From Lutjanus erythropterus (lineage: Eukaryota > Chordata > Actinopteri > Lutjaniformes > Lutjanidae), in NCBI GenBank assembly GCA_020091685.1, contig CM034593.1, positions 43,835,733 to 43,899,732 of the forward strand: 64,000 nt of DNA, written 5' to 3'. The translations under genes were made by a program, and so were the position numbers. This document shows, piece after piece, positions 14,567-63,627 of the stretch. The first letter of the stretch is position 1; every line of letters starts with the position of its first letter. The notes under the pieces are model-generated. The model had not been told where the DNA came from and ran no database searches. It worked only from the letters and a program-made list of their open reading frames with translations.

Positions 14567-15075
14567 TCTTCTTCTTCTTCTTGCCGTTTTATGGCAGTTG
14601 GCAAACAATGTTATGGTGCATTACTGCCACCAACTGGTATGGAGTGTGGATCAGGAATCTAACTTAAAACTACTAGCTCCAAATAAAAAAAAACAAAAAA
14701 AAAAACACTGAAAGTTAGGCAGTTAAACACAACAGTTAATATTCTCTTTATCAGTATTGATCTTTTAAGGTCCTCCTTTGCACACGTCAGCCATTTCATT
14801 CCCTCTCAGTCCTACATGAGCTGGTATCCATAACAATGTTATGATCAGTCCCATCATTTGAATCCTGAATATTGTGTGTTGTATTTCTAGTAAAATATCC
14901 TGTCTGCTGTCTGAGTGGCTGTTTTTCATGCTGATGACTGATGAGCTGGAGTCAGAGCATATTATTGTTCTCAAAGGTCTCACCTCTTCAACCCACTGGA
15001 CTGCTGCTAGTATAGCCATCATCTCCCCTGTGTACGCAGACAGCTCATTACTGATTCTCTTGCTTACTTTGATGT
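14567..15075 (-). mobile_element. 5'-truncated LINE with RNase H domain and 17-bp target duplication
   Basis: On the minus strand the translation contains ELSAYTGEMMAILAAVQWVE, then IICSDSSSS, then LLWIPAHVGLRGNEMADVCK: the Glu, Asp and His/Asp signature of a retroelement RNase H1 domain, as in I/Nimb-type LINEs. It ends in a (GAA)n-type tail, seen as (TTC)n at 14567-14582 on the plus strand. The identical 17-bp sequence TGGGCCCACCCACTTCT flanks it (14550-14566 and 15076-15092), a textbook retrotransposition duplication. The right arm of the host element preserves the empty site. Confidence 0.85.
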
Positions 15076-16178
15076 TGGGCCCACCCACTTCTACAGCTGG
15101 CCCACCTTAAATAACTGGGAGAACATATATTTTCTTAACTTTTATTTTAATTATTAAAATTCTAATCTCACTTTAACAAAAATCATTGGTATCATACTGT
15201 GGATGGCAACTAGCACTTCCAGTTGATTATGACACTTAAAATTTTTTGAACAGTTTCAGTCTGCAGTTTATATTTATTTCAAATGGCACAGGATATCTCC
15301 TTATCTGTGTTTTCACTGTGGATCATGTAGATCAGTATATCAGTTCATTAAGAAAACTGTCACTTTATTCCTTTTGATGCATTTTCATTTGATCTGGCTG
15401 GATTACTCTTTAAATTGATTGTAAGGAGAGATAGAAATGAAGTGATCAGAATGATGGGTGAGCTACAATGACTTTTAACAGGAGAGAGAGCGCAGTAATC
15501 TGAAGACAATCAAGTCAGGCAGCAATATTCAGCTCTACTTCCTGTATTGTCTACATTTTATAGATGTTCTAGTTTTGATGAAAAATGAATTTGCATGTAT
15601 AAAATAAGACAATGATAAGCTTTCCTCAGTACACCGGTCATCACTTCTGCTGAACAACCGCCATATTGTGACGTGTGCAAGCATAACATATCTGGTGCAA
15701 CAAATTATGGCCCACTGTGATTGGCCCAGACCTCACATGTGATAATAGCTGAATAAATGTTGTCTTTATGTCAAATGGAAACTTTTTTGTCTTAAGGGTG
15801 TATTAAAATGCTGATTTTAATAATTAAAAATAAAAGTTAAGAAAATATATGTTCTCCCCGTCATTTCAGGTGGGCCAGTTGTAGAAGTGGGTGGGCCCAG
15901 GCCCGTTAGGCCCACCATTAATGCTGTGCCTGATCGATGGATGGATAGATGCATAAATAAATAAATGAATGAATAATTAAATAAAAACAGTGTTCCACTG
16001 CTAAAATTACAAATGTGAACACAAATCAGTGTGAACTGTTTATTCAGGTCCAAATGCTCTGTAATCATGGTAATGGGGTCCTTTGGCGAGAGGGTCCTGC
16101 AAGGACCCCAACGACGGACCACGCTCATTCCAGCCCAGGCACCCCCCTCCCAAAGCAAAAAAGCTAGAGGAAACACTG

Positions 16179-28200: not shown

Positions 28201-28610
28201 CAGTGGCGGACTATTGCCTGATGGGCTGGGACGACAGCAACAAAAATGGCATGTTAATTATAATTATAATACAAACACACAGGAAACTACTGAACTATTT
28301 AAAGGCACATAGAGGCCTAGTATGTAGGGTAGCCTATGGCACTGTATTTTGTGTTCTCTCCATGAGAAGGGCATGTTAGAGGGCATTTTATCACATTTTG
28401 TCCAGTAGAATGGCAAATTAGAAGGCACTTTGCCACATTTTGTCCACTGGAAGGGCACCATAGAGTGTGCTTTATCACATTTTGGCACTCTGGACAAGGA
28501 ACCTTAGATGGCTCTAAATGATGCTTTATCTACCATAGGTGCATCTGAGAAGGCACTTTTGCATCGGGGGGCAATCGCCCCCTCGATGTCCCCACACCAC
28601 CACCACCTCC
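28201..28610. mobile_element. Minisatellite-bearing hAT-like repeat, copy A
   Basis: Starts CAGTGGCGGACTATTGCCTG, then from about 28347 carries four to five degenerate copies of the 42-bp unit (core TTTTGTCCACTGGAAGGGCA), and ends with the family-specific GGGGGGCAATCGCCCCCTC. The right terminal inverted repeat and target duplication are not clear. Open frames here on both strands are produced by the repeat unit. Confidence 0.55.
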
Positions 28611-38440: not shown

Positions 38441-39777
38441 CTGTTGCACCCTTGTTGAACTGGGCCTGGGCTTCAGGCAATTTGCAAGTTTATGACTCCT
38501 GAAATCCTGTGAGGTGATGCCAGTAAACTCATAATAGCACTCAACTGTACCAGCCTTGCCAGTTAGTGATGAGTTACTGAATACCAAAAGAAGCCAAAGG
38601 GAAGAAAGAACCAACGTTTCATGTATATTTAGTCCAGCTTTCTTTGGACAGAGTGCTCACACACCACTTGGGGTTAAGTTTCGATTTGTCACTTCCTGCT
38701 GGCTCAGAACATTTCCCAACAGAATCTATATCCAGCTGAGGAATTTAATTTGGGTAAATAGGGCAAATCTACTGGGTCTCCATTAGTGGGGATGAGATGC
38801 TGCTGTCTGCTGAGTCCCACCTTTTAGCTCGTAGGACGGGGGTGTTTTCACATGAAAAGTCTTGCCTGCTGCAGCTTCAACCATACCTTCATATTTCATT
38901 TTTCAGCATCTAAAGCTTTTAGATCTGGGAGCTACACGCTGCATGCTTTTCCAGGACCCGCTTGTTTTAAAAGGGATTGTTAGCATGTCCCATCCATTTG
39001 TTCTGTCTGTCAGTCATCATTTGTGTTTTCTCCACCTGACTGTGACGTGTGTTCATGTCCTTTTACATCAGTTGCAAAGCCTGTATGCCTCTGTTTTCAC
39101 TTGCAATTTTATCAATCTGCACCAGTCCTGTTTGGAAAAATAAACACACATAATACACAAAATGAGTGCATGGGTACGCACATGCGCACACACTTGCGTG
39201 CGCAGTGTCTTCATTATTATTTCTGGAACTTTCAGTGTGACTCCTGACTCCCGACCACTGTTACCTTCAGAGCAGTTCATTTGAAGTGCAGCAGGTAGTG
39301 AGAGTGATAGCACGGCACTGGGGACTGCTGCCGCTGCTGCTGACACTGTATGCTACCTGATAGTAAACCACAGAGCAGAGAGACAGAGGGAAAGAAGTCA
39401 GGAAGCAGAGGAGAAAAAGGCAGGAAAGAGAGCGAGCATAAATGTGACGCAACTTTTTAAACTTTAAAGCAATGTGGAAGGTGTGAACTGCAGCCAGACC
39501 GACTTCAACCCTGTGTGAAGAGCATCATTCATTTGAATGGAGCAGTCTGGTGATGCTGTGGGGAGCGTGACACAAAGGTCATCCAATGAAAAAGTTTAAA
39601 GGGTGATTCCATCTGTGCTCTTGTTTAGGTTTTTCACATGGAAACTCCCACTCAGCCATTTGCAAAACCAGTACTGTAGGTTACTGATGGCCAACCCTTC
39701 CTCCCTCAGTGCAGTTTGTATCTGGCAATGTCATTATGCAGAAAAAAAAGGTCAGGTAATATTTGTAGAATGGCTTG
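38441..39777. other. No supported gene
   Basis: Overlapping short open frames with no motif. A GCGCACAC/GTGTGCGC-rich patch lies near 39177-39205. This is the left flank of the hAT element. Confidence 0.5.
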
Positions 39778-39785
39778 GAAAAACA

Positions 39786-42700
39786 CGGGGTCGGCGTCAT
39801 GGGGGGGCACTCGCGGGCCATGCCCCCCCAAATGAGTCATTGTGCCCCCCCCTCCACACACCCACAAGCAGACCAAGCCTTTGTGCCAAACTTTGTATTT
39901 TATCTATCTATTACTTAAATTTATCGTATTGAACGTGAAATTGTCTTTGGTAAATGATATATATAAAAAAAAAAAAAAAACAACTACCACAACACACATT
40001 TGTTAGTTATATTTGCGTCACATGCGAGGACGTATGCTCATTGGTCCGGTGCTTGACCTATGACCTACTGGTTTGATTTGTTGTCGTTTCGTCCAGAGAA
40101 TGCGCGGTCAGTGAGCACTACAGCGCTAGCATTTTTCACAGTGAAAGCAAGCTATTATCAAACTGAAATAACAGAGAATGGATATAAGAAAGTGGCTACA
40201 CGGTGCTGCATCTTCTAGGCCTCCCTCAGCTCCATCTACGGAAGAGGGAGCAAATGCGCCCGGCCCCAGCGCCGCTGCCTCTGAAGAGCAAGGCCCAGAG
40301 TCGTCATGTATTAGTGGCCACGATGCATCTGCTAGCCTAAGTGCTACCTGTGGAAGAGCACCCATAGATGACCTCGGGACCGACCAGCCCAACCAAATTG
40401 TTTTACAGCAGTACCCTGCCAGCATTTTCAACGGTAGGAAGCGTTCGTTTGTCCCTGCTTGGTATCACAACCGAGACTGGCTTGAATACAGCATCAAAGC
40501 CAATGCAGCATTTTGTTTTTGTTGTAGGCGGTTTAGCGGCCACCGCAGGTCTCAGACACTGGATGCTTTTGTAAGTGTGGGTTTCCGTAACTGGAAAAAT
40601 GCCACGGAGAAAGATCGGGGATTTCATAAACACGAATCTTCAAAGGAGCACCTCTCTTGCTACGCACTGTGGAAGGAGCGGGACAGGCGCATTGATGCTG
40701 GAAAGGAGATTTCAACACTTGTCAACACAGACCAACTACGAAAGAACAGGTATTATGTCTCCTCTCTCATTGATGTTGTGGGATTTCTAACGGAAAACCA
40801 GCTGCCTTTACGAGGAAAGATAGACGCTTTTGACAACATGTCGGAGGGAGGGAGCGGCCTTTTTCTCTCCTTACTGGACTATACAATTAAAAAGGACCCG
40901 GATTTGGCAGCTGTTGTGAAAACAATCCCACGCAACGCCACATACACCTGTCACGACATGCAAAATGAACTCATAAGTACACTGAGCAGTGTGGTGACTG
41001 AGGCTATAGTGGGGGAGGTGGGGGACTCCTATTACACTTTGAAAGTAGATGGAACCCGTGACCCCACAGGATGTGAGAATATATCAATTGTCATCAGATT
41101 TGTAAATGAGTCATATGAGGTCACAGAGCGTCTGCTAACCATAGCAACCGCTGATAAAGGTGACGCACAGACATTAACAAACACTGTTTTGGCGGAGCTA
41201 AATGGAGCTGGACTAGACACATCAAAGATTCTTAGCCAGGTATTTGATGGAGCTGCTCTGATGTCTGGGAAACATGGTGGCGTCCAGAAGCTACTGCAAG
41301 AGAAGCTTGGTCGTGACATACCTTATGTACACTGTCTGAACCACCAGCTACACTTGGTGGTAGTGCACGCAATGTCAGCAGAGACAGCTGTAGTGGACTT
41401 TTTTCATGTTTGTAATGCCCTTTACAAATTCTGCAGAAAGCCGACAGTTGCTGTGCACTATAATGGTGTGCACCTTAAACGTCTATTGGAACAGAGATGG
41501 ACGGGACATCTCGCCACTGTGTCAGTCATCCTAAAATCCTTCAACGACCTGACATCCCTATTGACTGAGACTGATACAGTACTAGCCTTTGGCGCAGAGG
41601 TACGGATGGAGGCTGCGGGCCTGCTGCGCGAAATGACCGAGCCCCGCTTCTTGTTCATTGCTAACTTGGTGCACACAGTTCTTGCCCTGCTGGATCCACC
41701 AAACAAGCTTCTTCAGAGAGAGGACGCTGACTTGATGACAGGTTTAAGTATCGTAGCTAGTGCAACAGCCTGTGTGCGGAGACTCCGCTGTGACGAGGAG
41801 TTTAACAAGGTGTGGGATGCGGCTGCGGCTGCGAGCGCTCCACTGAGACCCACGACTCCCAAACGGAGACGCAAAGCGGCCGCCAATATGGATGATTATG
41901 TCTTTGTGGGAACCACAGGACACAGAGATGGCGATGACAAAACAGAACTGAAGAGACTGTACTACAGCACTATTGATTCAGTACTTGGAGAAATGGACCA
42001 CAGATTCAGCGAGCGCAACTCGGAGTTGGCCCGCGCGCTTGTTGCACTGAACCCAGAAAGTGACACATTTCTGGACGTGCAGGCTGTGAAGCACATTATG
42101 GATTTGTCACAGTCGCCTATTGTTGAGACGGAGTATGAGGTTGCTAAACAGTTTTTCAGCTCACAAAAACAATCGCAGCCAATCGAGGGGGACTGGACTG
42201 TACAGCACATCATCTCCAAGTACCACACGCATCTCACCGCAATGCCGAGTGTATTGACTGCTTTCAAACATGCTTTAACATTTGGAGCCTCCACAGCCAT
42301 GTGTGAGAACTCATTCTCCACCCTGAGAAACATATTTTCGGACCACAGACGCGTAATGCTCCACAAAAGAAAGGCCCAGTTGGTTCAGCTGGCGTTTGAA
42401 AGGGACTTAACCAGAAAGTGTACAACTGAGTGGAAGGACACTGTTCTCAGGAGGTTCCGCAACAACAGTCGCCGGTTGCAACTCTTCTAAAGGTAAGACA
42501 TGTATTTAATTCACTTCTTGGCGCCAGCCTTGGCTTTCATTATTATGCAAAGTGTGGAATATGTGGGTTTGGGTCTGTCTAAATTCGTCAAATTAAATTT
42601 GGAGATTCACTATTCACATTCGATATGTGTGTGTGTTGTATGAGAGAGATGGAGAGGGCGATGGAGGGAGAGGGAGAGACATGGCCTGCACATCGGCTTT

Positions 42701-42918
42701 TTTTTTTTTTTTTTTTGCAGTGGGGTGCACAATACATTGTGTGTGTATTTAAAAAGAGACTCTGCAGCATGTTGTGTAATTGGAGCTGGTTTGCTGTGTT
42801 GGTTGATGGCAAACTCATATTAAGAAGCATTTATATCATATATTGAGTTCTCAGCAGTATGTGCCCCCCGCTGGTTACTGTATGCCCCCCGATTAGATCT
42901 GTTCTGCCGCCGACTCTG
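39786..42918 (+). mobile_element. Complete, apparently autonomous hAT transposon (3133 bp)
   Basis: The left end CGGGGTCGGCGTCA and the inverted right end CAGAGTCGGCGGCA match at 11 of 14 positions. Both sides carry the identical 8-bp target duplication GAAAAACA (39778-39785 and 42919-42926). The element holds one intact transposase gene (40178-42490). Subterminal regions carry G/C runs: an inverted pair GGGGGGGCA / TGCCCCCCC at 39801-39829, then TGTGCCCCCCCC near the left end, and TGTGCCCCCC and TATGCCCCCC near 42860-42890 at the right end. An A-run after TGATATATATAAAA at 39955-39983 may be promoter-like. The perfect duplication and open frame suggest recent insertion. Confidence 0.9.
40178..42490 (+). 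CDS. hAT-superfamily transposase, TTF zinc-finger / ZMYM1-like, 770 aa
   Basis: Single uninterrupted frame. Residues 1-80 are low-complexity (Ser/Ala/Pro). About 88-165 form a TTF-type zinc finger (RKRSFVPAWYHNRDWLEY, then FCFCCRRFSG, then HKHESSKEHL), expected to bind the element ends. A DUF4371-like region follows. An RNase H-like hAT core is visible: LKVDGTRD with D291, QVFDGAALMSG with D357, and HCLNHQLHLV with the CxxH pair. A basic patch TPKRRRK lies near residue 545, and the C-terminal dimerisation region ends with GASTAMCENSFSTLRNIFSD holding the third acidic residue near E710. All three presumed catalytic acids are present. It would act in the nucleus, cutting and pasting its own element. 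Fish databases often label such proteins 'zinc finger MYM-type 1-like', but the flanking TIRs and target duplication mark it as a transposon gene, not a host gene. Confidence 0.92.
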   Translation: MDIRKWLHGAASSRPPSAPSTEEGANAPGPSAAASEEQGPESSCISGHDASASLSATCGRAPIDDLGTDQPNQIVLQQYPASIFNGRKRSFVPAWYHNRDWLEYSIKANAAFCFCCRRFSGHRRSQTLDAFVSVGFRNWKNATEKDRGFHKHESSKEHLSCYALWKERDRRIDAGKEISTLVNTDQLRKNRYYVSSLIDVVGFLTENQLPLRGKIDAFDNMSEGGSGLFLSLLDYTIKKDPDLAAVVKTIPRNATYTCHDMQNELISTLSSVVTEAIVGEVGDSYYTLKVDGTRDPTGCENISIVIRFVNESYEVTERLLTIATADKGDAQTLTNTVLAELNGAGLDTSKILSQVFDGAALMSGKHGGVQKLLQEKLGRDIPYVHCLNHQLHLVVVHAMSAETAVVDFFHVCNALYKFCRKPTVAVHYNGVHLKRLLEQRWTGHLATVSVILKSFNDLTSLLTETDTVLAFGAEVRMEAAGLLREMTEPRFLFIANLVHTVLALLDPPNKLLQREDADLMTGLSIVASATACVRRLRCDEEFNKVWDAAAAASAPLRPTTPKRRRKAAANMDDYVFVGTTGHRDGDDKTELKRLYYSTIDSVLGEMDHRFSERNSELARALVALNPESDTFLDVQAVKHIMDLSQSPIVETEYEVAKQFFSSQKQSQPIEGDWTVQHIISKYHTHLTAMPSVLTAFKHALTFGASTAMCENSFSTLRNIFSDHRRVMLHKRKAQLVQLAFERDLTRKCTTEWKDTVLRRFRNNSRRLQLF

Positions 42919-42933
42919 GAAAAACAGCATTTT

Positions 42934-43111
42934 TTGGGGGGCTTTTGGCTTTATTTTAATAATGACAGCTAAAGATATGATAGGAAAGAGAGAGGGGATG
43001 ACATGCAGCAAATGGATCGCAGGAGGGAGTCGAACCAGCGGCTGCTGCAGAGGACAAACAGCCTCAGAACATGCTGCATTCGCTCCACCAACTGAGCTAT
43101 AGAGGCACCAC
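42934..43111 (-). mobile_element. tRNA-derived SINE with 15-bp target duplication
   Basis: On the minus strand it starts GTGCCTCTATAGCTCAGTTG GTGGAGCG (tRNA A-box-like) and has GGTTCGACTCC (B-box-like) about 50 bp on, then the tail region TTTGCTGCATGTCATCCCCT, CTCTCTTTCCTATCATATC and AATAAAGCCAAAAGCC. GAAAAACAGCATTTT flanks both sides (42919-42933 and 43112-43126). The tRNA part does not fold as an intact tRNA, so this is a SINE and not a tRNA gene. It abuts the right end of the hAT element. Confidence 0.85.
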
Positions 43112-43126
43112 GAAAAACAGCATTTT

Positions 43127-45275
43127 GTTGCTAAAATATAATTTGACCAAAATCTGAATGTTCCGATCAGAATACATAAAGAAGCCTCACCGAAAAATAG
43201 ATAATGGCCTCGCCTTGTAACCTGGTTCGACAAATAATCAGAATAATAGCCCGATCATAATGAAAGTCTTGTGTAAATGCTTCAATTGGAAGAGACTGAT
43301 CAGATCTGGCTTGGTTGTAATTATTTTTTAGTCCAAACATTTGATGATCTGTGCAAAAGGAAATGTATCGAACGTTTCTCTCTGTGTTGTAGGACCTTCC
43401 ACATATACTTCCGCACTGTGCGGCCCATAGAGTAAGCATAAGAGAGACTTTCCTCTGAATGTTATTAGACTGGATGGATTAATTGGAAAAAAAATGCAAC
43501 TGTCACTTTACAACTGTGTCTTTCACAATGTAAATCCATGGGGGAAAAGTCTTTTTGTGGGCTGTAGAGCATCACTTGATGTTGTCATTACAAAGTTTGG
43601 CCACTATGTCAAATTGGCATTAATGTCTGGCACACTTCCTCGGGGCTTGTTTGTGGCATGTAAATACACGTTTTATCAAATCACTTTTTTTAGTGTCCAT
43701 GAAAATCAGATCAAAGAAATATTGTCCATATTGTCCAGGTCAAATTTTCTTCCTGGTGTGAAAGGACATCTTGTTTTTCTTTATTGTTTAGTGAGTTGTA
43801 TACTATAATTCAGCTGATATAATATCAATAGAATATAGAATATGAAGAGGAAGAGGAAGAAAAGGCAACAATGACTGAGACCAGTGAGTCAGTGCACATA
43901 CAGAGGGTGAAGGTTCTTGATGATGGAATATAATTCCAACAAAAACAAACACATATTCCTATTTATTTTTTACTTGATTTTTTTTTTCTTTGCACTACTC
44001 CTTTCGCTCTACTGTCATAAGCAAAATATAATGTCTTATCTTTTGTTATGTTTTCCCTTTACTCAATCACAAAGCAGCACACCGCTCTACACAATGAGTC
44101 AAGGCAACAGCATGTCTCATAATGCTTTGTAAGTGGATTTCATGAAAGAGATGTTGGAAGGTCATTTGGAGAGTTATTCACTACTTAAGAATGCCCACTG
44201 AGTACCAGCCTCATTTGAATAAACCTCAAGAGAAATTTGAAGGAAAAAAAGAAAGAATGAGAGTAGATATTCATACAGGAATAACATAATAATAACATTG
44301 CCTGGGTATCTTCTGTGATCTGTGAATGTTACAGGGATTAATATTTAAAAAATCGAGCATTGCCTACCATATAATATTACTTTGAGGATAGTAATGGCTC
44401 TCAGCTGGAAGTTATGATTCTGCTCTACTTGATCCGTTTAGTGGTAAATCTGAAAATGTCAGAAATAAATATATAGAACTTTGTGGAAAGGTTGGTCAAG
44501 GGCAGAAAAGAAGAGACAGTCAAGATTGATGAAGAACAAGCTCTACCACAAAATGTATTGTTCACACAGTAATAATTGGACTGTGTGATGATAAAAACCT
44601 TGGTGGCACAATAGGGGGTGAGTGAAGCAATACTTTTTGAAAGCAACCAGCTTGCACTTCAGAGGATAACAGGGAATAGCAGGATAAGAATATTTTTGAC
44701 ACACTTCTCTCCAACAGTGGTGTCAGCTTCAACTTTGGAAAAACTTTTGGAAACTTTTGGAAACTTTTTCAATTTTTGGAATGCAAAATACACAAGCTTT
44801 TACTTCATTAAGAATGCTCCTGTCTGAGACTGTACACTCCACAGAGATTGACTGAACACACAGAGGACCACGATGTTCACCAGAAGTGGATCAAGAATAT
44901 TAACAGAGAGGACGTTCCTGAAAATCTCAAATACCTTTAAGAGATATAAATTAATGTTTTCAGTGTCAGTGAGCCACAGGAGACATGGTGTCTAAGGGAA
45001 CCCTGCACCCATCAAAGATCTCGCAAGAGTGATCGTTTACCTGAAACCGTGAGAAAATCTCACAGATCTTGGGTTCACCTCTGGATACAACCAGCAGACA
45101 ACGAGTGACATACAGTAGGACGTACCACCGCAGTAATGCCAGCGCCGCTAGATGGCAGAACACACAAATCGGTCGTTGGATTTGTCTGTGTAGTACCATG
45201 AAACACTGTGCCACAAACACAACACAAAAAGATCTCTGTTCTGAAAAAAATAAGTGTAAAAAAAACTTTTTTGGG
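43127..45275. other. No supported gene
   Basis: Unremarkable AT-rich sequence. Short open frames lack motifs. A small direct repeat of CTTTTGGAAA lies at 44740-44770. Confidence 0.5.
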
Positions 45276-48240: not shown

Positions 48241-50473
48241 CAGTGGTGGTGGACCCAATGTTTTGTCCACTGTAAGGGCACTGTAGAAGGGAATTTGTCA
48301 CATTTTGTCCACTAGAAATGCACTTTAGAGGGCACCTTATCACGTTTTCTCCACTGGAAAGACACCTTAGAAAGCACTAAATATTTTCCACTAGTAGGGC
48401 ACTCTAGAGGGCATTTTATCATGTTATGTCAACTAGAAGGGCTTTGTCCACTGGAACAGCACTCTAGGGGGCATTTCATCACATATTGTCCACTAAAAAG
48501 GCAGCTCATAAGGCACTTTATCATGTTTTATGCACTAGAAGGGTGCTCTAGAGGGCACTTTATCATGTTATGTCCACTGAAGGATACTGTACAAGTATTT
48601 TCCACTGAAAGGGCACTCTAAAGGTCACTTTATCGTGCTATGTCCGCTAGAAGGGCACCTTTGAAGGCACTTCATCATGATTCGTCTAATAGAAGAGCAC
48701 TCTAGAGGGCACATTATCATGTTTTGTGTATTAGAGGGGCACCTTAGAAGGGAGTTTGAAATGTCTTTTTTCCACTGGATGGACACTTAAGAAGGCACTT
48801 TACCACTGGAATGGAGGGCACTTTATCATTTTTGTGAACTAGAAGGGCACTCTAGCTTCCTAAGACCCGGCAATTCATTATTGTTATATATTGTCTCTGT
48901 GGAGGACATTACATTGAGGCTTTTATTTCAAACATCATGCACATGTGGGTGTGGCCAACAGAGCATGTCTTCTGTCTTTTTAAAATGGCAGGAATTTCAG
49001 CAAATACAGTTTTTGGCAGTAAGAGAGTTAAGTGATCAGGTTATAGATACATTGTTATCGTCTTTATGAGGATGTTATTTTTTATTAGTCTTAACTATAT
49101 TATATTAAGTTTGTATGCGTTTTTGTCAATTTTAAGCCTTTCAAAATACACAGTGGCGTTTGCTTCTTCTCATTTTCAACCATCTTCCATGCTTCAGGAA
49201 ACAGCGCTGCGTGAGGAAGAGGGTTTTTTGATCTGTGTGACCACATGATCAGCCTGTATCTAATGTTAAGTCACACAAAGAAGTGTGCTTTCAGCACCAT
49301 CCTGCATTTCTTTGATCTGGCTTCCACAAACAGCTGATCCACTACAGGCAAGACCACCAGGCCTCTGGGAGACCTGCAAAGAATAGTTTGCAGTATGCAC
49401 TTCAAAAATTGGTTAGGAGAGAAGGATGCAGTGGGAAAATGTGTCTCAAAGGCAAATATGTCAAAAAATGTTTGTAAAAATGACAAATTATAGATATTGT
49501 TTTATATTAATTTCCAGCATTCATCAAATAAGAAAGAACAAAATAGAAATGCAGAGCAAAGGAAAATTTAGCAATACCAAACTGATGCCTTGGAATATAG
49601 TTTTTGTGGGAAATTTCGTCTCAGTGTCCACTACAAGGAACATGTTATAAAACTTAAACAAATAACAAAGATTCTGATATGTTTCCTACATCCCATTTAC
49701 CTAAATTATGTAAGATAAATCTAAATATTAAACTTTTTTCTTTCAGGATTCTTCAGGGCTATGTCATGTTTTATCCACTTGAAGGGCACTCTAGAGGGCA
49801 CTTTATTATCTTTTGTCCATTGAAGGGCTCTGTGGAGAGCACTTTATCATGTTTTGTCCACCAGAAGGGCACTCTGGAGGGCACTGCATCACATATTGTC
49901 CACAAGAATAGTACTCTAGAAGTCACTTCCACTGGAAGGGCACTCTATAGAGTGCACTCGACTACATTTTGTCCACTGAAGGGCACACTAGAGGGCACTT
50001 TTTCATGTTTTGTCTACTGAAGAGTACTCAAGAGGGCACTCCAAGTATTTTCCACTGGATGGACACTCTAGAAGGTACTGAATTACGTGTTGTACCCCAG
50101 AAATGCACTCTAGAAGGCACTTCATCACATTTTGTCCACTAGAAGGGCAGTCTAGAGGGCATATTATCACGTTATATTCACTGGAAGGGCACACTAGAGG
50201 GCACCTTATCACCTTTTCTCCACTGGAAGGGCACTGTAGAGAGCACTTCATTACGTATTGTCCACTAAAAGGGCACTCTCGAGGTTGCTTTATCATGTTA
50301 TGTCAACTGGAAGGGCAGTTGAGAAGGCTCTTTACCACATTTTCTCCAGGTGAAGGGTAGTTAATCACATTTTTACCCTGAAAAGGCATCCGAGACGGCA
50401 CTATCTACCTTAGGGGTCCCCAGGGGAGGCAATCGCACCCTACGCCCCTGTACCTCCTCTGAGTCCACCAGTG
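48241..50473. mobile_element. hAT-like element built around 42-bp minisatellite arrays, copies B and C
   Basis: The left end CAGTGGTGGTGGAC and the complement of the right end (CACTGGTGGACTCAG) form a short TIR. The 8-bp flanks CTCCATCC (48233-48240) and CTCCATGC (50474-50481) match at 7 of 8. Arrays at about 48257-48856 and 49755-50430 consist of a degenerate unit of about 42 bp with core TTTTGTCCACTAGAAGGGCA and CTCTAGAGGGCACTTTATCA. The 900 bp between the arrays has no transposase and may be a separate insertion. The right side shares GGCAATCGCACCC with copy A at 28566. Because 42 is a multiple of three, long open frames with a 14-residue period appear on both strands; they are not credible genes. 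Confidence 0.65.
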
Positions 50474-54050: not shown

Positions 54051-54054
54051 TATG

Positions 54055-54152
54055 ACAGCCAAAAGGACAGTAGAGAGGGTTGGGATGACATGCAGCAAAG
54101 GGCTGCAACAAGGAGTTGAACTCATGGCCACTAGGGCTACTAGGGCACCACA
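54055..54152 (-). repeat. Degenerate tRNA-derived SINE copy
   Basis: The minus strand reads GGTGCCCTAGTAGCCCTAGT, then GAGTTCAACTCC (B-box-like), then CCTTTGCTGCATGTCATCCC, matching the order of the SINE at 42934-43111. It is shorter and diverged, with no clear duplication. Confidence 0.6.
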
Positions 54153-54715: not shown

Positions 54716-57163
54716 CAGTGCCTATAAAAAGTATTCACCTCCTTGGATGTGTTCCCCTCTTATTGCCTTTATAAATGGAATCATGGACAAAAAATTATCA
54801 AAAAAATCTTTATTATGTCAAAGTGAAATATTCACCCCCTTAAAGTCAGAATTTAGTAGATGCACCTTTGGCTGCCGTCGCAGCACTGAGTCTGTTTGGA
54901 CAGGTCTCTATCAGGCTTGCACATCTGGACACTACAATTTTACTCCATTCTTCTTTGCAAAATTGCTCAAACTCTGTCAGGTTGCAGAGGAATCAGGCGT
55001 GAACAGCCATTTTCAAGTCCAGCCACAAATTTTCTATTTGATTGAAGTCCAGGCTTTGACTTGGTCACTCCAGAACATTCACCATGTTGTCTTTGAACCG
55101 TTTCTGTGTAGCTTTTGCTGTATGCTTCGGGTCATTGTCTTTCTGGAAAATAAATCTTATCCCAAGCGGTCGTTCTCTTGCAGACGGAATCAGATTGTCC
55201 TCCAGGATTTCCCTATATTTTTCTGCATTCATTTTACCTTCTACCTTTACAAACCTTCCAGGACCTGCTGATGAGAAGCATCCCCACAGCATGATGCTGC
55301 CACCACCATGCTTCACAGTGGGGATGGTGTGTTTGTGGTGATGTGTAGTGTTTGGTGTGATGAGGCCAAAAAAGAGGTTTTTGGCCAAGGGACCAGACGC
55401 TATGTTTGGCAGACACCAAAGAACCTTCTTCAACTAAACCATGGAGTCCCCCACATGCCTTTGGGCAAACTCTAGTCGAGATTTAATGAGCTTTCTGCAA
55501 CAGTGGATTTCTCTTTGCCACTCTCCTATAAAGCTTTGACTGGTGAATAACCTGGACAGCAGTTGTTGTATGCAGAGTTTCTCAGCCACTGAAGCTTTTA
55601 AGTCCTTCAGAGTAGTCATAGGTGTCTTTGTGGCCTCCCTCACCAGTCTCCTTCTTGCACAGTCACTCAGTTTGTGAGGACGACCTGCTCCAGGCACATT
55701 TACATTAGTGATGGGAATTCCGGCTATTTTTAGCGAGCTGGTTCTTTTGGCTCGGCTCACTAAAAAGAGCCCGCTCTTTCAGCTCCCAAGTGGCTCCTCA
55801 GATTTTTTGTTGCTCAAATTAATTTATTACCCAAAATAATGTAAAATTAATTACTAATGTAAAAAACATACATTATATCAAATGTTTATTATTTATATGG
55901 CTTTATTTATACACTCAACATACTCAACATGGAGGAGAGTACTACAATATTAAGCAGAGTGCTTAATTTTGACAACAAACACCACATATTATATTAATTA
56001 CAAATTTTCTGTGTAATTGTAATATTTAACACTGGATATATTAGTCTTCTGTTGTGCAATGAAGTTTTAATCTGTCAACAAGCAGATATTTTGTCTGATA
56101 ATAATAAAGATTATATATATGACTTATATATGACTTGGTTTTACAAGGCAGATAAAAGAACAGATGTTACATGTATCAGAAGGAGGATCTCTTCTATTTT
56201 AACCTCAATCAGTGATCAAGAACGCACTTTATTTCTTCAGTTATGATCGTGGTCTGCAGACTACAGGTAACCTACAGGTGGTCTCTTCCTCTATTCTGTC
56301 TTGACTTTGTTGAAAACTGTCCAACTTGACTGTAGATTTTCGCCTAAACTTCCTGCTGCGGCCGTCTGATCTCGTCTACTTTCCAGGCGAGGCGCAGTTC
56401 ATCTCAAACGAGTGTATTTTCTCACCTTTCAAGCGTGTTGTCTCTGTCTGTAGCGCATGTTCTCTCTCGTCACCCTCCCACTTGCTTATGTGCTCACTGT
56501 GTTGTATGTCTATAACCCCTCCCCTCCCCCTTCTACTCAGTGTGGACACACACACGCCACCAATCATGTGCGACTTTAACAGAAAAAAAACAGGAGAAAA
56601 AAACAAATCTGCTCCCAATCAAGAGCCGGTTCCCGTTGTTCACTTCAAAGAGCCAGCTCTAAGATCCGGATCATTCGCGACCGACACATGGAATTAACTG
56701 AAGTCCAGGGGATGCTCAGTGGCATGGATTTTTTTTGTATCCACCCCGACTTATACTTTTCAGTAACCTTTGCTTGGAGTGTTCTTTTGTCTTTATGGTG
56801 TCATTGTGGCCAGGAATACTGATGAACCAGTGACTGGACCTTCCAGACACAGGTGTCATTACTATAATCACTTGAGACACATTCACTGCACTCAGCTGAT
56901 CTTCACTAATCGTGAGACTGCAAGCACCAGTTGGCTGGACCTCTGTTGAATTAGGTCAGTCACTTTATAGGAGGTAAATATATATGCAATTGTTTACTTT
57001 ATGTTACATATTTTTATTTAATTGCCATTACTTTGTAGAAATCGGTTTTCACTTTGCCATTAAAGAGTTTTTCTTGCTAATTTTTCTTTTTGTAAAAAAA
57101 GCCAAATTATACTGACAATGATTCCATTTATAAAACCAATAAAACGAAAAAACAAAGGCACCG
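54716..57163 (-). mobile_element. Tc1-like transposon remnant, split by a nested hAT MITE
   Basis: It is flanked by TA (54714-54715 and 57164-57165) with short terminal match CAGTGCC/GGCACCG; the fuller left end CAGTGCCTATAAAAAGTATT is typical of a common fish Tc1 family. Minus-strand coding pieces: 55760-55434 has GAGRPHKLSDCARRRLVREA (HTH region), and 55433-55065 has KHGGGSIMLWGCFSSAGPGR, EKYREILEDNLIPSA and FQKDNDPKHTAKATQKRF, which carries the second catalytic Asp of the DD34E transposase. A stop between the two pieces, missing ends and the insertion at 55707-56688 make it dead. Without the insert it is about 1.46 kb, normal for Tc1. Confidence 0.88.
55707..56688. mobile_element. Non-autonomous hAT-like element inside the Tc1 copy
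   Basis: It interrupts the Tc1 reading frame just before GAGRP. Ends AGTGATGGGAATTCCGGCT (left) and complement TGTGTCGGTCGCGAATGATC (right) are loosely inverted, and both sides have facing AAGAGCC/GGCTCTT words (AAAAGAGCCCGCTCTTTC at 55763; AAAGAGCCAGCTCTAAG at 56647). Flanks TTACATTA and TGGAATTA match at 5 of 8, so the duplication is only suggestive. Confidence 0.6.
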
Positions 57164-62871: not shown

Positions 62872-63627
62872 ATCAGTTTTGTCTTCACTCTTCCAAAGGC
62901 AAGCCAGAGCATCCCACTGAGCATGGTTGAAGAAGCTGTTGACGACATGTACCACGGCTGCAACGAAGCAATGACGAAACTGATCGAGGGCAAATACTTT
63001 AAAAAAGAGAACACTGGAATATTTGCAAAAGTGTGGAAACAAGCAGAGCCCTGTGCAAATAGAAGTGAAAAAAATAAAGAGAAAGGGGACGAGGCTCTGA
63101 CCAAGAATCACCTGCAGGCAATTTGTGTTTTCACATCTGATCGAGAAAAGTTTTATAAGAAGTTCAATGATGCAGTCCGGACCAACAGAAAATCCTATGG
63201 CACCTCCTTCCCATTTCACTCCTTACATTTCTGGCTGACATCAGCGGTACAGATCCTCAGTAATAACAGAAAATGTCTCACCACTTACCGCAGAACCAAC
63301 AGTAAGTTTACTGACAAGAATATCAAAACAATTCGGTTTGGTTTCTTTGCATCCAGCTCCAAGAGAAACAACCTGACACAGTTTGGCACCAAGACCTGCT
63401 TTGAAATTACCACCTGTTTCGGTGCTTTCCTGAAAAAGTATCCATATCTGAAAGATAAAGAGGAAGAGGTGCTTATCCCGCCCTATGAGAAGTTCACAGT
63501 CGAGAAAGCTCAGAATAAATTCACGGGTCTGGCTGATTGTGAGGTTGTGTACATCCTGAAGAGCGCAGGATTTGAAAGCAATCTTGACTGCAAACTAGGG
63601 CACAAACCAACAACTGGTTCTTTCTGA
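62872..63627 (+). CDS. Arginine-specific ecto-ADP-ribosyltransferase, catalytic exon (ART family)
   Basis: The exon begins after a strong acceptor (CTTATTCTCTTCTAG) in phase 0 and encodes ISFVFTLPKASQSIPLSMVE and on to TGA at 63625-63627; joined to the signal exon the protein is 276 residues, normal for fish ARTs. The R-S-EXE signature is complete: CLTTYRRTNSKF with R165/R166, FGFFASSSKRN with S186-S188, and KEEEVLIPPYEKF with E222 and catalytic E224. The usual N-terminal DDMYHGC motif and paired cysteines are present. Potential N-glycosylation sites are NRS near 88 and NLT near 192. The C-terminus (KLGHKPTTGSF) is polar with no hydrophobic GPI-signal tail, so the enzyme is probably secreted (ART5-like) rather than membrane-anchored. 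It should transfer ADP-ribose from NAD+ to arginine on extracellular proteins. The last exon is intact with no frameshift. Confidence 0.92.
   Translation: MSFVFTLPKASQSIPLSMVEEAVDDMYHGCNEAMTKLIEGKYFKKENTGIFAKVWKQAEPCANRSEKNKEKGDEALTKNHLQAICVFTSDREKFYKKFNDAVRTNRKSYGTSFPFHSLHFWLTSAVQILSNNRKCLTTYRRTNSKFTDKNIKTIRFGFFASSSKRNNLTQFGTKTCFEITTCFGAFLKKYPYLKDKEEEVLIPPYEKFTVEKAQNKFTGLADCEVVYILKSAGFESNLDCKLGHKPTTGSF

Follow-up and report, generated by a model that had tools for sequence, protein, structure and literature searches.

Does the fish Lutjanus erythropterus carry a hAT transposon that is still whole and perhaps still able to move? The question is raised by a 64,000-nucleotide stretch of its genome (assembly GCA_020091685.1, contig CM034593.1; C3:43835733-43899732, hereafter the window), in which an earlier reading made from the letters alone (the sequence-only reading) had described an intact, apparently autonomous hAT with a TTF-finger transposase that may have moved recently. 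We examined this element, at positions 39786-42918 of the window, against the rest of the assembly (937.6 Mb, 444 contigs). We conclude, with a probability of roughly 85%, that it is a structurally intact, autonomous-looking hAT whose transposase contains a TTF-like finger and DUF4371, that it belongs to a long-resident family and a constrained lineage, and that it is the single full-length copy found.

Other copies in the genome fix the ends of the element

The transposon spans 3,133 base pairs (bp). Its ends and noncoding parts are given below by window position and strand, with the support for each.

39778..39785, no strand: left target site duplication GAAAAACA, supported by the separate duplications of other copies
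39786..39796, + strand: left terminal inverted repeat CGGGGTCGGCG, with the same ends in other copies
39797..40177, + strand: 5′ noncoding part of the element, from the sequence and the limits of the open frame
39802..39850, no strand: left subterminal octamers GGGGGGCA/TGCCCCCC, starting at 39802, 39821 and 39843, from a shuffle test
42491..42907, + strand: 3′ noncoding part of the element, from the sequence
42862..42890, no strand: right subterminal octamers TGCCCCCC, starting at 42862 and 42883, from a shuffle test
42908..42918, - strand: right terminal inverted repeat (CAGAGTCGGCG on the minus strand), supported by duplications at other copies
42919..42926, no strand: right target site duplication GAAAAACA, also the start of the left flanking repeat of a short interspersed nuclear element (SINE)

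The tips, CGGGGTCGGCG on the left and CAGAGTCGGCG on the right, form 11-bp terminal inverted repeats. The matching repeats of the sequence-only reading are thus present at both ends, and their match is imperfect (9/11). The perfect 8-bp duplication it had reported, GAAAAACA, does stand at both flanks; it also occurs a third time, at 43112-43119, because the flanking repeat of the abutting SINE starts exactly at the transposon's right end. The repeat length and the length of the element both lie within the ranges given for the hAT superfamily in the cited part of PMC3942097 (10-25 bp and 2.5-5 kb, respectively).

An octamer pair adjoining a 9/11 terminal repeat was seen three times in the whole window, compared to 0 to 5 times per shuffle in 20 shuffles. 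Because such combinations arise by chance across the window, the proof of the ends is drawn from other genomic copies. Within the flanks of the open frame (39300-40170 against 42495-43400), there are 24 octamer pairs, and the runner-up adjoins a repeat of only 5/11. This comparison and the duplications of other copies, described below, rule out a chance origin of the ends.

A genome search with the transposase as query, in which the best 58 of 173 candidates were scored, returned at least 64 matches with a single full-length one, at 100%; among the matches listed, the next nearly full-length transposases are at most 30% identical. The search with the whole element returned at least 57 matches at no fewer than 31 loci (a lower bound, with matches less than 5 kb apart joined into one locus), and one of the 31 is full length. 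We fetched 21 of these loci and examined them for ends and duplications; the other ten are C15:13.17M, C16:3.31M, C18:9.37M, C19:32.18M, C2:26.53M, C3:41.11M, C4:40.99M, C5:0.82M, C6:5.15M, and C7:6.20M. A copy was counted as two-ended when its ends lie where the element alignment places them. Reverse listings of the same copies and chance pairs in loci of unrelated families were left out of this count, as was the pair at C7:42.17M, the left end of which, with 4 mismatches and a duplication of 2/8, is placed some 100 bp beyond the aligned start. The copy at C14:56k lacks its first 22 bp and hence falls outside the duplication test.

Eight two-ended copies were identified in the 21 loci, seven of which carry their own 8-bp duplication, as expected of a hAT. 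Four duplications are perfect: those of the window copy (GAAAAACA), C20:29.74M (GGCCTATC), C21:0.34M (CTGTGGGG), and C9:1.72M (ATTAGAGA). Three have one mismatch: C2:42.0M (GGGTCACC/GGGTTACC), C8:12.54M (TGTACAAG/TGTTCAAG), and C14:4.49M (GTTCCAGT/GTTCTAGT). When the right octamer was shifted by 8-25 bases as a control, the best scores were 4, 6, 5, and similar, with a mean near 2. The left 11 bases, CGGGGTCGGCG, are identical beside a separate duplication at C20:29.74M, C21:0.34M, and C8:12.54M; the left terminal repeat is altered in the copies at C9:1.72M and C2:42.0M. Since other copies end alike beside duplications of their own, the boundaries are right and the family has truly transposed, and the coordinates first proposed for the element prove exact.

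The left tip is CG in six of the eight two-ended copies and CA in two. The CG-tip left ends are those of L007, L009, L026, L028, L044, and L016, all with a duplication of at least 7/8. The CG tip therefore did not block movement.

Over the few duplicated sites at hand (n=7), we saw neither of two target preferences. The Buster group tends toward the target consensus nnnTAnnn, and none of the seven sites has TA at positions 4-5. Likewise, 0/7 combine T2 with A7, the tendency of the Ac group (nTnnnnAn, as given in the cited part of PMC8961557).

Five octamers of the form TGCCCCCC/GGGGGGCA occur in the two 150-bp ends, compared to at most one in any of 5000 single-base shuffles. All five lie within 65 bp of the tips, and two more are found elsewhere in the window. 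By analogy with other systems, they are possible binding sites of the transposase. DNA hairpins at the left end are no stronger than in shuffled sequence (26/200 shuffles fold at least as well), and those at the right end are weaker than in most shuffles (171/200).

A single open frame encodes a complete transposase

The transposase gene is one open frame on the plus strand (40178-42490), which runs from MDIRKW to RRLQLF over 770 codons plus stop, the length given by the sequence-only reading. When the element was block-shuffled 200 times, the longest frame reached 259 codons, compared to the 772 observed from stop to stop, which rules out a chance origin of the frame. Its features, all on the + strand, are as follows.

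40463..40672, +: TTF-like zinc finger region (C113, C116, H152, H158), zf-C17orf113 at an expectation value (E) of 0.0097, below cut-off
40562..41278, +: DUF4371, the first part of the RNase H-like hAT core, Pfam E 5.1e-19, 69.5 bits, cut-off 32.1
41048..41050, +: presumed catalytic Asp D291 (VDGTRD), in 9/9 aligned rows including the window protein, role by analogy
41246..41248, +: presumed catalytic Asp D357 (FDGAA), in 9/9 rows including the window protein, role by analogy
41333..41344, +: C386..H389 motif, identical in 9/9 rows
41495..41500, +: R440-W441 motif, in 8/8 rows reaching the position
42209..42385, +: hAT C-terminal dimerisation region (Dimer_Tnp_hAT), E 0.0012, 19.0 bits, cut-off 21.4
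42305..42307, +: presumed catalytic Glu E710 (CENSFS), in 7/7 rows reaching the position, including the window protein, role by analogy

Members of the hAT superfamily have an RNase H fold with an inserted helical domain. The DUF4371 profile score clears the curated Pfam cut-off by a wide margin (69.5 vs 32.1 bits). The Cys/His pattern of the finger is common to the aligned relatives, and its sole profile match (zf-C17orf113) is below cut-off; the name TTF is taken from the cited part of PMC3985635. The alignment comprises the window protein and eight similar frames from the same genome, 24-30% identical over the matches, one of which (L023) is a fragment of a disrupted frame. Each of the four relatives checked in Pfam (L008, L010, L011, and L022) has both DUF4371 and the dimerisation domain above cut-off.

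D291, D357, and E710, which we take to be the catalytic triad by analogy with other hATs, are common to all aligned relatives reaching them, as expected of a transposase with an Asp-Asp-Glu (DDE) core. The catalytic residues that had been predicted are thus in place, and the frame, DUF4371, and the TTF-like pattern support the description as an intact, apparently autonomous hAT with a TTF-like finger.

Solved structures gave no sequence match, either to the full-length protein (E up to 1) or to residues 270-770 (E up to 10). No relatives were found in phages, in plasmids, or in one search of viral contigs. Pattern matches in viral contigs (7 and 6 in two further searches) and in prokaryote genome contigs (6) were unconfirmed by tblastn. 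A 17-base left-end pattern led to six viral-contig loci without transposase similarity, five matching over 17-18 bases and one over 36 bases at 83%, which we treated as chance.

Deletion derivatives share junctions at different loci

Three sets of internally deleted copies were found. The copies at C20:29.74M and C14:56k share junctions at about 389 to 1803 and about 2228-2236 to 2399-2414; they diverge from the window copy by 3.35% and 3.72% over aligned sites, and one 435-bp piece of the C14:56k copy is 98.6% identical to it. The second set (C8:12.54M, C21:0.34M, and C7:42.17M) shares a junction at about 190 to 2304, with pieces 74-94% identical to the window copy. The third set (C20:21.80M, C10:2.63M, C5:42.35M, C17:26.18M, and C8:12.03M) shares a junction at about 155 to 2490-2514, with pieces 72-83% identical.

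The same deletion in different flanks argues that these copies moved after the deletion, with transposase from elsewhere, such that all three sets would most simply have moved in trans. As the sets stand at graded identities, the family seems to have been mobilised in this genome over a long time. The recent movement suggested by the sequence-only reading is supported by these data in the sense of fairly recent for the family, judging by the derivatives 3-4% away and the separate duplications at other loci. The near-identical copies it had proposed to count did not turn up: among at least 31 loci with one full-length copy, the set 1 derivatives are the nearest.

The transposase frame has been under constraint

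We aligned 7 of the at least 31 loci for divergence. With C8:12.54M as outgroup, 722 four-way sites show 5 private changes in the window copy, 9 in C20:29.74M, and 15 in C14:56k. In 284 coding sites, with the junction left out, private changes number 0, 4, and 2, respectively; 16 5′ sites have none.

Private changes were also sorted by codon position relative to two dead copies, C156 and C2:42.0M. The window lineage has 6/7/17 changes at first, second, and third positions, compared to 16/19/15 and 33/31/33 in the dead copies (chi-square P 0.025; third versus other positions, Fisher P 0.021), in a test of modest size that involves these two copies only. The third-position excess argues that the frame was selected for function while its relatives drifted. 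Pairwise ratios of nonsynonymous to synonymous change (Ka/Ks) against the two dead copies are 0.37 (406 codons) and 0.42 (504 codons). The observed/expected CpG ratio is 0.649 in the element, compared to 0.33 over the remaining sequence of the window.

On the assumption of neutral change, a frame of this length would stay open to 1% divergence with a probability of 0.04-0.21 and to 2% with a probability of 0.002-0.05. Because neutral survival is appreciable, the open frame alone is no proof of activity. Ages computed from neutral rates depend on the rates assumed, and our conclusions do not draw on them.

Is the element still competent?

That the element is intact and autonomous as a structure is well supported, and recent activity of its lineage fairly well supported. 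Several observations weigh against this picture. One two-ended copy, C8:12.03M, lacks a duplication (4/8), and the dimerisation domain of the window protein scores just under the Pfam cut-off (19.0 vs 21.4 bits). The short terminal branch of the window copy (5/722) is weakened once it is split by region: at 409 3′ noncoding sites, private changes number 5 in the window copy, 5 in C20:29.74M, and 12 in C14:56k, so these sites give the window copy no lower age than the C20 derivative, and it is the coding part that is cleaner. Without an outgroup, the window copy differs at 28/1491 sites, compared to 20 and 27 for C20:29.74M and C14:56k, a count that includes the common branch of the derivatives and five misaligned sites at the junction. 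The high CpG ratio can in part be put down to the DNA being coding, and 1 of 110 other sliding windows is higher. Finally, neither another full-length copy nor a near-identical derivative is among the matches found, the nearest lying 3.35% and 3.72% away.

By analogy with other hATs, we infer a cut-and-paste mechanism for an autonomous element of this kind. Transposase would be made from the single-frame gene. Its finger and core would bind the terminal and subterminal repeats, the role of the finger being suggested by Hermes, and the DDE RNase H-like core would cut the element out. The excised element would then be joined elsewhere with an 8-bp stagger, leaving the 8-bp duplication. Over its long life in the genome, the family would have given rise to several generations of internally deleted copies, whose movement is most simply explained in trans, and the window lineage would have kept a constrained transposase frame while its relatives decayed. 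A stronger version, which we offer only tentatively, is that the window element may be the one remaining functional copy of an old family, a still-competent hAT with a variant CG tip that repeatedly yielded and mobilised derivatives and follows the target preference of neither the Ac group nor the Buster group.

The alternative that survives best differs from our reading solely in present competence. The element may have died recently, as a fairly young insertion with an open frame in which changes in the transposase or the ends stop movement, a relic without visible decay. The single full-length copy and the lack of near-identical daughters among the matches found are consistent with such a death, as are the neutral survival of the frame to 1% divergence and the CG tip of the window copy, given that two of the eight two-ended copies have CA. 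The third-position excess on the window lineage and the intact expected residues argue against it, and the CG tip itself is shared by six two-ended copies, all with duplications. We regard recent death as possible without favoring it.

A host gene could also explain the constraint and the single intact copy, if the transposase were retained for another purpose, and the Ka/Ks values and the one full-length copy among the matches found would fit such a gene. The sequence-only reading had held that a lone diverged copy, fixed in all individuals and syntenic in distant species, would suggest domestication or an old insertion; we do find a single full-length copy, yet this does not point to domestication, because the element retains its two ends and an intact 8-bp duplication and the derivatives carry duplications of their own. 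Common deletions occur at different loci among the derivatives 3-4% away, one of which has a perfect duplication, so these ends were being moved by a working transposase of some kind; the constraint, moreover, can predate the window insertion. We therefore consider domestication very improbable. The idea that the feature arose by chance or is mis-bounded, with the duplication belonging to the adjoining SINE, draws on GAAAAACA being the start of the SINE's 15-bp flanking repeat, with three local occurrences, and can be set aside as next to impossible, since the left GAAAAACA (39778-39785) adjoins the left end of the transposon, on the side remote from the SINE, and, decisively, other copies with these ends have duplications of different sequence.

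To our knowledge, few native vertebrate hATs are known with an intact transposase plus a series of their own non-autonomous descendants. Were the structurally intact element described here functional, it could become a gene-transfer tool and a test case for how an autonomous single copy persists while its derivatives multiply. If still competent, it would be a native vertebrate Tip-like transposon for which the transposase source and the natural substrates are both known. The sequence itself is an ordinary example of an already known transposon type.

Neighboring features and a second DUF4371 element

The abutting SINE (about 42934-43111, minus strand) is of the tRNA type, with A-box-like and B-box-like sequences, and is flanked by the 15-bp repeat GAAAAACAGCATTTT at 42919-42933 and 43112-43126. 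ARAGORN and Rfam (at the gathering score) called no RNA gene at the SINE. The two insertion orders, SINE first or transposon first, explain the site equally. A diverged relative of the SINE lies at 54052-54121 (76% over 74 bp).

Elsewhere in the window, an open frame on the plus strand (62872-63627) matches NAD:arginine ADP-ribosyltransferase (ART, E 1.3e-40) and is likely a host gene exon. Two adjoining minus-strand frames at 55065-55778 are remains of a Tc1-like transposase (HTH_Tnp_Tc3_2, E 7.5e-6; DDE_3, E 0.0043; both below cut-off), and an RNase H fragment at 14765-15106, minus strand (E 1.6e-6), probably belongs to a retroelement. Four separate arrays have a 42-bp period (28365-28484, 48261-48376, 48648-48751, and 49764-50348); their units are related, three of the four consensus units contain TTTTGTCCACT, and the largest array has 14 copies. 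CA repeats are also present.

Among the relatives, L010 (C17:255279-260543, minus) and L011 (C18:29871-35132, plus) are two copies of another DUF4371 hAT. Each has an 823-codon frame from stop to stop, and the two match at 99.26% identity across 2,828 bp, with sharply defined limits; the C18 copy (L011) is about 100 bp longer. Their ends are CATTGGCGTAGC/CAGTGGCGTAGC, with a perfect 8-bp duplication, GTACAGAC, at the C18 copy and none at the C17 copy. Judged by copy identity, this pair is a stronger candidate than the window element for recent movement.

Comparison with known hAT systems

The cited part of PMC3985635 treats DUF4371 proteins as hAT transposases in which a TTF finger at the N-terminus (ZnF_TTF) is followed by an RNase H-like core and, in many cases, a hAT dimerisation region (Dimer_Tnp_hAT). 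The window protein has this same order, with a TTF-like finger and a putative dimerisation region. It shares the presumed catalytic positions with the four Pfam-confirmed frames of the same genome, but it is only 25-30% identical to them, and its dimerisation and finger profiles fall below cut-off.

With Tip100 of morning glory, as covered in the cited parts of PMC12511174 and PMC3942097, the element shares one long frame (808 amino acids in Tip100, 770 here), 11-bp terminal repeats, and an 8-bp duplication. Compared by eye, each of its ends matches the printed Tip100 repeat, CAGGGGCGGAG, at 8/11 positions. Transposases of the Tip group are those that cluster with Tip100 and BuT2 in a tree. 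Tip100 is a plant element, however, and the cited part of PMC3985635 gives DUF4371 as absent in plants, so a relation between the two is at most tentative. According to the cited part of PMC12511174, Tip100 works in medaka with 100 bp per end, leaving 8-bp duplications.

Fish have hAT-Tip100 families of their own, and the window element resembles them, by description, as a vertebrate hAT family. Some of the cichlid families are judged likely active in recent time (PMC11753138, cited part), and UN-Zaphod1_Ola is classed as hAT-Tip100 (PMC9004415, cited part). Here, by contrast, a single full-length copy was found among the matches. Hermes, as presented in the cited part of PMC10368747, differs in having a BED finger where the window protein has a TTF-like one, but it likewise combines an N-terminal zinc finger, an 8-bp target, and subterminal repeats, and in Hermes it is the N-terminal finger that binds the subterminal repeats.

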